This document shows, piece after piece, positions 2,808 to 4,757 of a stretch of DNA of 64,000 nt. The stretch is taken from the NCBI GenBank assembly GCA_004193285.1, contig SECP01000001.1, positions 62,001 through 126,000 of the forward strand, in the 5' to 3' direction. Within the stretch, counting starts at the first letter, position 1; each line of letters opens with the position of its first letter. The DNA is from Myxococcales bacterium (lineage in GTDB: Bacteria; Myxococcota_A; Polyangia; Polyangiales; Polyangiaceae). The position numbers and the translations under genes are program-made. The notes beneath the pieces were generated by a model, which saw nothing but the letters and a program-made list of their open reading frames with translations, was not told the DNA's origin and ran no database searches.

Positions 2808-4757
2808 ATGACCTTACTGACCCTTCCGGAAGCCCGTGGCTCCGGCCTCTCCGAACGCGCAAAGGCCCTGGTTTTCGAGGATCCTCGCTCGCGCGAGCTT
2901 CTCGAGCAGATTCGCGGCGTCGCTGGCAGCGACCGCCCCGTCCTGCTTCTAGGCGAGGCAGGCACCGGCCGCGAGCTGGTAGCCCGCTACATCCATGAGC
3001 TCTCGTTGCGGCGGCTTGGGCCATTCTTGTCCACCAACTGCGCGTCCTTTCCAGGCGCCGAGTTGGAAGCCGAGCTGTTCGGTCATGAGAAAGACGCGGT
3101 GCCCACCAGCAGCGGAGCGCGCACGGGCGTGCTCGAGAGCGCGGAAGGCGGCACGCTGTACTTGGACGCGATCGGTGACACTCCTCAGGCGACGCAGGCC
3201 AAGCTCGTTCGCGTGCTGGAGGACCACCAGTTTCGAAAGCTGGGCGCCCGGCGCTACCAGCCGTTCAATGTGCGGCTCATCATTGCCAGCAGCGTTCAGC
3301 TTCAAGAAGCGGTGACCGCAGGCCACTTCAGGCCGGATCTCCTGCGCCTGATCTCGGGGACCAAGCTCGAGGTGCTACCTCTGCGCAAGCGGCGGGGGGA
3401 CGTCTTGCCGCTCGCGAGGCACTTCCTCGCGCTCTATCAGCAACGAATCGGCATCGGCTCACGCTCCCTGAGCCCGGAAGCGGAGCGCCTGCTCCTCGAT
3501 CATCACTTTCCTGGCAACATCCGGGAGCTCGAGAGGGCCATTCATCACGCCATCCTGCGTTGCCGCGGTCGGTTCATCACGCCCGAGGATCTGCGGCTAG
3601 GCGACGAAAGCGCGCCGACCTCGGAAGCCGGCTCACCCCTGCAGGAGCTCGAGCGTTCTCTCGCCAAGTTGTTCGAGCTCAGCCCTCCGCACCTGCACGA
3701 GCTCATCGACGAAGCGGTGATGCGCAGCGCCTACCGGTTCTCCGGGCAAAATCAGCTCAAGACCGCGCGTTTGCTCGGCATCAGCCGCAACGTGGTGCGG
3801 GCCCGGTTGATACAATACGGGGAGGTCGCTGGCTTCCTGCGCGCGCCTTCCTCGGGAGATGCGCCAGAGAGCCGTCCCCGCTCGAGCGGTCGAGCCCGCC
3901 CAGTGGTGAGCTTCGGCTACCAGCCTTTCGGTTTGCTCAAGCTGCTGCGCGCCCGGGGCAGCATCGAGTCCCAGCTGAACGAGCTCGGCTATCAGGTCGA
4001 ATGGAAGCACTACCCGAGCGGCATCCGCCTGGTGGACGCGTTCAAGAATGGTCAGCTCTCCATCGGCGTCGTTGGGGAGGGGCCGCCCATCTTTGCCCAA
4101 GCCTCCGCGGTGCCCATCGTTTACGTCGCAGCGGAGGCGCCTGCGCCGGAGGGCGAAGCCATCGTCGTCCATCAGGACTCTCCCATCCGCAGCGTGGCGG
4201 GGCTTCGGGGCAAGAAGGTCGCGTTACTGCGCGGCTCGAACGCGCACTACCTGCTGATTCGCGCCCTGGAAGAGGCGGGCCTGTCCTACGGGGACGTACA
4301 GGCAAAATTCGTCTTTTCTGACGCCGCTCGCGCGCGCTTTCAGCACCGCGAGGTGGACGCGTGGGTGATCGCCGACCCCATTCTGGCAGAAATTCAGCAG
4401 CGGCTGCCAGTGCGGGTCCTTCGCGACGGGCGCGGTCTGACGACGAACCCAGCCTACTACGTGGCAAGCTCGGATTTCGCGACCGAGCATCCGGAGATCT
4501 TGGCCCTCTTCCGGCGCGAGCTGTCGTCCGTACAGCGTTGGGCGACCGAGCACGTGGACGAGGCCGCGGGCTCGCTGGCCCAGCAAGTGGGCATCGGCCG
4601 TGAGGCAATCGGGCTGGCCTTGAAACGCAGCTTGGGTGAGAGCTTGCGACGCCCGGAGATCATCGCGTCGCAGCAGCGCGTCGCGGACGCGTTCTTTCGG
4701 CTAAAGCTCATCCCCCGCGCCGTGTCGGTGGCGGACGCGGCCTGGCCGCTCGAATAG
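2808..4757 (+). CDS. bEBP-like AAA+ (degenerate) / Fis-type HTH / SsuA-like ligand-binding fusion transcriptional regulator
   Basis: N-terminal ELFGHEK...GGTLYLDAIGD AAA+ core, HTH ...NQLKTARLLGISRNVVRARL, then ~290 aa SsuA-like domain (VVSFGYQPFGLLKLLRARGSIESQLNELGYQVEWKHYPSG...GEGPPIFAQA) homologous to the SBP at 55085..56078. Confidence 0.85.
   Translation: MTLLTLPEARGSGLSERAKALVFEDPRSRELLEQIRGVAGSDRPVLLLGEAGTGRELVARYIHELSLRRLGPFLSTNCASFPGAELEAELFGHEKDAVPTSSGARTGVLESAEGGTLYLDAIGDTPQATQAKLVRVLEDHQFRKLGARRYQPFNVRLIIASSVQLQEAVTAGHFRPDLLRLISGTKLEVLPLRKRRGDVLPLARHFLALYQQRIGIGSRSLSPEAERLLLDHHFPGNIRELERAIHHAILRCRGRFITPEDLRLGDESAPTSEAGSPLQELERSLAKLFELSPPHLHELIDEAVMRSAYRFSGQNQLKTARLLGISRNVVRARLIQYGEVAGFLRAPSSGDAPESRPRSSGRARPVVSFGYQPFGLLKLLRARGSIESQLNELGYQVEWKHYPSGIRLVDAFKNGQLSIGVVGEGPPIFAQASAVPIVYVAAEAPAPEGEAIVVHQDSPIRSVAGLRGKKVALLRGSNAHYLLIRALEEAGLSYGDVQAKFVFSDAARARFQHREVDAWVIADPILAEIQQRLPVRVLRDGRGLTTNPAYYVASSDFATEHPEILALFRRELSSVQRWATEHVDEAAGSLAQQVGIGREAIGLALKRSLGESLRRPEIIASQQRVADAFFRLKLIPRAVSVADAAWPLE

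Follow-up and report, generated by a model that had tools for sequence, protein, structure and literature searches.

What can a sigma54 activator still do once its catalytic residues and its sigma54-contact loop are gone? The question is raised by a gene in a 64,000-nucleotide stretch of DNA (hereafter the window) from a soil myxobacterium of the Myxococcales, taken from a draft assembly of 8.66 Mb in 119 contigs (7.78% contamination; genes called with a simple codon model). Its product joins a degenerate SfnR-type bacterial enhancer-binding protein (bEBP) to an SsuA-like sulfonate-binding domain, and the gene lies in an island of organosulfur genes on contig C96. We propose, with moderate confidence, that this fusion responds to sulfonates and regulates sigma70-type promoters, probably activating them while repressing its own gene, and that the TGTCT-N8-AGACA box recurring in the island is probably the operator of a separate regulator of the XRE-cupin type.

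A degenerate enhancer-binding protein and its family

The initial annotation, made from the letters alone, had described a pseudo-bEBP fused to an SsuA-like domain without signal peptide, and on this point it was right: the open reading frame, every motif that it quoted and the profile matches agree. Pfam places Sigma54_activat at residues 22-186 and the AAA lid at residues 193-263, and the NCBIfam model SsuA_fam (TIGR01728) matches residues 379-645 (E 3.7e-56) with 190.5 bits, above its curated cutoff of 163.5. The structure prediction that it had proposed as a check points the same way. Indeed, an AlphaFold2 model built on a 71-row alignment has a mean predicted local distance difference test score (pLDDT) of 84.7, the N-terminus and the linkers at 266-275 and 345-362 being poorly defined, and Foldseek matches it both to the AAA+ domains of sigma54 activators (NtrC1/FlrC) and to SsuA bound to MOPS (3ksx) or MES; none of the Foldseek matches listed joins the two domains in one solved chain. 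The sensor part matches E. coli SsuA (2x26) with E 6.8e-46 and is 30-32% identical to solved SsuA structures, and by this homology we infer that the ligand would be a sulfonate. The fusion differs from the SsuA binding proteins in having no signal peptide and in carrying this domain behind its helix-turn-helix (HTH), and is a candidate cytoplasmic sulfonate sensor.

The statement that the AAA+ domain has "lost all hallmark residues" should be toned down. Walker A reads GEAGTGRE (49-56, Lys to Arg), Walker B reads GGTLYLDAIGD (114-124, Glu to Ala), and the region of the GAFTGA loop reads ELFGHEKDAVPTSSGART (89-106), with GAFTGA absent; the two catalytic residues and the loop are thus gone, as claimed. 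The Gly and Thr of Walker A, the Asp of Walker B, Arg175 (in the arginine-finger segment GHFRPDLLRL, 172-181) and the sensor II Arg239 are still present, and the HTH motif, QNQLKTARLLGISRNVVRARL (314-334), is intact. The replaced residues cannot be put down to sequencing noise, because they are conserved across the aligned degenerate relatives: Walker A has Arg in 33/33 of these and Lys in 33/33 canonical proteins, the Walker B Glu is replaced by Ala, Gly or Ser in 33/33 and retained in 33/33 canonical proteins, and GAFTGA is missing from every aligned member of the degenerate clade.

When the SsuA part alone was scored against proteins of 357-1136 residues, 238 proteins were returned. Among the 120 of these that were listed, the majority also have a sigma54-activator domain; the names of the fusions indicate Sorangium, Polyangiaceae and Myxococcales, and many are annotated in databases as ABC transporter binding proteins, a frequent misnaming of regulators that the present analysis corrects. 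The protein of the window is one of a large family, found in Polyangiales, in which an enhancer-binding protein of the SfnR type carries an SsuA domain and most members are canonical sigma54 activators; our literature search for such a fusion family found no description of it. The same genome encodes two more full-length fusions on contig C96 (C96:166856 and 139584), both with GETGTGKE, GAFTGA and LDE, and all three genes lie in one island.

In a tree of the HTH and substrate-binding protein (SBP) parts, a quick search in which several label changes are needed, 40/40 degenerate forms fall inside one set of 47 rows (97 in the Shimodaira-Hasegawa-like approximate likelihood ratio test). The main group within this set (99) comprises 38 degenerate proteins and one short row; the other 8 rows form its sister group (99). 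Within the sister group, P0041 keeps intact Walker motifs and has lost GAFTGA, P0043 and P0039 show further losses, and P0040, P0042, P0044, P0045 and P0047 are HTH-SBP proteins without AAA+, the first of them keeping the N-terminal SLIFEDPKSS segment directly before its HTH region. Relative to the SBP part, the AAA+ core diverges faster in the degenerate clade than in canonical proteins (1.10 versus 0.66) and the HTH more slowly (0.44 versus 0.73). Our best model is that the degenerate lineage keeps its HTH and its sensor domain under selection.

The candidate DNA site and two kinds of promoter

Which DNA would such a protein read? Pseudomonas has close relatives of its HTH in proteins of the SfnR type. 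With these the fusion shares a near-identical HTH and the lack of an N-terminal regulatory domain, and it would share an organosulfur regulon and, as a candidate DNA site, a palindrome upstream of neighbouring promoters; they differ from it in their intact Walker motifs and GAFTGA and in having no SsuA domain. We take these loci to be SfnR from homology and background knowledge, no curated model having matched, and the palindrome was deduced in the present analysis. Near the Pseudomonas genes, 9/10 strong sigma54 promoters carry TGYTGC-N4-GCARCA (at most one mismatch), against 2.5% of random windows; the palindrome precedes the -24 element by about 97-119 bp, and a spacer of 4 is best, with 7 a weaker runner-up. 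This is our most independent check, yet the pattern was first spotted there by eye, before the island was searched. SfnR itself is presented as a sigma54-dependent regulator of dimethyl sulfone and organosulfur genes (Endoh 2003/2005, as cited in PMC8234197).

On contig C96 the palindrome has 8 exact copies, all in the organosulfur island (other spacers give 0-1), and 20/20 hits of the palindrome model fall there as well. With one mismatch, the contig holds 19 copies against 14 of a reversed-pattern control, which is near equal, so that the claim of enrichment is carried by the exact and model-based counts; genome-wide, the 18-mer palindrome with one mismatch is not clearly above the reversed-pattern control, and the enrichment holds for C96 only. 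In box-bearing loci that have no fusion, 37 boxes were found with no SfnR-type site, and a second set gave 23 boxes and 1 site, with some of the loci overlapping. Because the HTH is near-identical to that of the Pseudomonas proteins whose neighbouring promoters carry the palindrome, we think that TTGCTGC-N4-GCAGCAA, and not the TGTCT box, is probably the DNA target of the fusion.

This site occurs in two settings. Beside the canonical paralogs it precedes -24/-12 elements, for example at ssuD (C96:142651-); elsewhere its distance from a TGTCT box is about 40-70 bp, and it is mostly 60-100 bp ahead of the start codon. Among 113 site-gene pairs, which are not independent of one another, a -24/-12 score above 9 was found in 0/41 pairs with a box versus 46/72 without, and a box stands beside the site in 36/59 pairs from loci that carry a degenerate form versus 5/54 elsewhere. 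Upstream of the degenerate gene itself the order is box, 39-40 bp, site and ATG in four loci (G000, L056, L136 and L198), whereas canonical fusion genes with a site have it farther upstream, mostly at 155-214 bp. Two canonical fusion genes without a box (L158 and L160) have strong -24/-12 elements about 32-33 bp before the start, which suggests sigma54 autoactivation of these genes.

The TGTCT box and its probable reader

A box of this kind had been noted in the divergent promoter of the fusion gene; it is there, as an imperfect match, and its family is far above chance. The window holds 9 matches (at most one mismatch) versus 0.81 expected, all six exact boxes that the genome contains are confined to a 91-kb part of contig C96, and a model trained on these six finds 30 sites in C96:1-366000, of which 29 fall in 53576-166805. 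As the boxes stand mostly 1-60 bp ahead of start codons and are not accompanied by -24/-12 elements, a role as sigma54 enhancer was rejected; a role as -10 element tied to gene orientation was rejected too, there being no asymmetry (Wilcoxon p 0.21) and no consistent -35.

It was also suggested that the fusion could read this box, as a candidate master repressor, and co-occurrence of the two was proposed as a check. Neither the genome nor the locus comparison bears this out, box presence not tracking fusion presence. Of 14 genomes with strict boxes, 11 have no detectable family HTH, and boxes lie near XRE-cupin genes in G001, G003 and other relatives without the fusion. The island itself holds two XRE-cupin genes (C96:59027-59488 and 157129-157782). 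Over 117 genomes, strict boxes occur in 10/45 XRE-positive versus 4/72 negative ones, a modest association (Fisher p 0.016), while the association with the family HTH has p 0.054; neither is decisive alone, and many XRE-cupin loci have no box. We think that the box probably serves a separate sulfur regulator, of the XRE-cupin type, as its operator. The class of E. coli SutR, which is unrelated to the fusion, is our candidate reader, and the two XRE-cupin proteins of the island presumably resemble SutR, to go by their domains and its known function. It would not be unusual for the fusion family to stand under a sulfur regulator, since Pseudomonas sfnR is placed under CysB by the title of Endoh 2003 (cited in PMC8234197).

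Boxes are also found in other company. In G003, a relative with no detectable fusion, they lie densely over organosulfur-type genes (contigs C38 and C65; L042-L045, L236). Just upstream of the window (C96:53943-56733), genes for a Family 2A encapsulin shell and its cysteine desulfurase cargo adjoin the island, and the promoter next to them holds a box; in G071 boxes adjoin homologs of both. Upstream of the fusion genes of L139, L141, L144 and L146, a conserved stretch around ACATTCCCTACAGGA lies between box and start, more weakly in L144.

How the fusion may act, and the alternatives

In the scenario that we favour, SfnR-like enhancer-binding ancestors would have gained a C-terminal cytoplasmic SsuA-like domain, and the degenerate lineage, its sigma54-contact loop, Walker A Lys and Walker B Glu gone, would have stopped activating sigma54. 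The fusion would bind the palindrome at core promoters that lack -24/-12 elements, the centre of the site being some 40-70 bp upstream of the TGTCT box, and would adjust the sigma70-type transcription of organosulfur genes according to its sulfonate ligand. Most likely it would activate, touching RNA polymerase in the manner of TyrR or R. capsulatus NtrC, and it would repress its own gene from the site just ahead of the start codon. Activation is favoured over the master repression suggested initially because the site stands upstream of box and start codon at most targets; a repressive geometry is seen only at the fusion's own gene.

TyrR is a bEBP homologue without the sigma54-contact loop that acts at sigma70 promoters, and the analogy with it, already drawn in the initial annotation, gains weight from the pattern seen across the clade and from the promoters. 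R. capsulatus NtrC, Caulobacter NtrC and V. cholerae VspR are further bEBPs that lack GAFTGA and act at sigma70 promoters (PMC10274813). All four have, like the fusion, a bEBP body without that loop, and all four have other sensor domains. ATP binding still matters in R. capsulatus NtrC, and hydrolysis too in Caulobacter NtrC, whereas in the fusion clade both the Walker A Lys and the Walker B Glu are gone, and part of the sister group lacks the AAA+ domain altogether. The known cases are scattered. In the present family, which belongs to a single group of bacteria, intact, loop-less, ATPase-dead and AAA+-less versions appear to exist side by side with a common HTH and sensor, and the candidate sites at both kinds of promoter make it possible to test stepwise how a strictly sigma54-dependent activator can switch the form of polymerase. 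It is tempting to read from this a path from sigma54 activator to one-component sigma70 regulator (loss of GAFTGA, then of the ATPase, then of AAA+), in which the DNA site is kept while its partner in the promoter changes from a -24/-12 element to the operator of another regulator. We offer this path tentatively, the strict order of losses being our reading of the tree and not its result.

Several points weigh against the role that we propose. The two canonical paralogs have near-identical HTHs in the same genome, and the promoters with site plus box are not directly assignable to the degenerate protein. The degenerate member of L137 has no site at its own start, -35/-10 elements are hard to recognise at most boxes, and the conserved AAA+ fold suggests a retained role (oligomerisation or nucleotide binding) outside our model. 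As to the counts, orthologous promoters and both directions of each site enter them, which makes p-values indicative only; the tests reuse loci on which the models of site and box had been trained, and the -24/-12 weights were set by hand.

The main alternative is an anti-activator, which would compete with the two canonical paralogs at the palindrome, or poison mixed hexamers, and so damp sigma54 activation. The three near-identical HTHs in one island of one genome invite this idea, as does the site at the fusion's own start codon, and catalysis lost with the fold kept is, we would argue, typical of dominant-negative paralogs. We nevertheless think it unlikely: many sites in the islands that carry a degenerate form are at promoters without -24/-12, which offer no sigma54 activation for it to damp, and the AAA+-less relatives of the sister group would be unable to enter hexamers. 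A protein that mainly represses sigma70 promoters at the same palindrome, with sulfonate relieving the repression, has its precedents in VspR (PMC10274813) and, as established knowledge, in TyrR, and the geometry at the degenerate gene in four loci would suit it; the position typical of activators at the other targets, usually 60-100 bp before the ATG, makes it improbable.

We are equally sceptical of a repressor that would read the TGTCT box and shut the island at its core promoters. The boxes are specific to the island within the genome, many start codons have one 1-60 bp ahead of them, and they stand upstream of 21/31 family genes outside G000 and G006, which had made the fusion a natural candidate reader. 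This candidacy is weakened by the boxes of fusion-less genomes, several of them near XRE-cupin genes, and by the different palindrome that accompanies the near-identical HTH in Pseudomonas. That we are dealing with a decaying gene without function seems very improbable indeed: its catalytic motifs are lost and its AAA+ core diverges faster than in canonical relatives, but the frame is open, the protein is conserved in dozens of divergent relatives with the same replacement residues, and HTH and SBP remain tight.

Features of the window that bear on the fusion and its candidate sites (positions count from the first nucleotide of the window)
Feature	Position	Strand	Basis
Degenerate SfnR-type bEBP + SsuA-like domain fusion, 649 aa	2808..4757	+	ORF, profile matches, AF2 model
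AAA+ core and lid, residues ~20-265; Walker A Arg55, no GAFTGA, Walker B Ala121	2865..3602	+	Pfam, motifs, Foldseek NtrC1/FlrC AAA+
Fis-type HTH, residues 305-338; near-identical to Pseudomonas SfnR-type proteins	3720..3821	+	motif, HTH comparison
SsuA-like sulfonate-binding domain, residues 370-649, behind HTH, no signal peptide	3915..4754	+	TIGR01728, 2x26, 3ksx
TGTCT-type box TATCTTCTATAATAGACG, divergent promoter with major facilitator superfamily (MFS) gene; proposed XRE-cupin operator	2749..2766		motif score 23.5, imperfect match
SfnR-type site TGCTGC-CGTA-GCAGCA, 3 bp before fusion start codon; proposed fusion binding site	2789..2804		motif
SfnR-type site upstream of methyltransferase gene at 4869	4775..4790		motif model
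Box between TTGACC and TATCTT (17-bp spacer), methyltransferase promoter	4833..4850		pattern and motif model
SfnR-type site upstream of TauD-family gene at 14867, inside preceding ORF	14728..14743		motif model
SfnR-type site 65 bp upstream of ABC gene at 22584	22503..22518		motif model
Two SfnR-type sites (29144-29159, 29178-29193) between boxes 29111-29128 and 29218-29235; divergent amidohydrolase and NtaA/DmoA-type monooxygenase genes	29144..29193		motif models
Box 34528-34545 and SfnR-type site 34594-34609; aldo/keto reductase and molybdopterin genes	34528..34609		motif models
Box 40080-40097, SfnR-type site 40130-40145, box 40192-40209; divergent promoters	40080..40209		motif models
SfnR-type site 42861-42876 and box 42929-42946	42861..42946		motif models
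Box 60880-60897 and SfnR-type site 60935-60950; flavoprotein and SsuD-like genes	60880..60950		motif models

One neighbouring operon deserves mention in its own right. At 7410-11621 of the window, genes for a porin, two permeases and an ATPase stand in a row with no adjoining binding-protein gene, whereas the matching operon in G026 has one.
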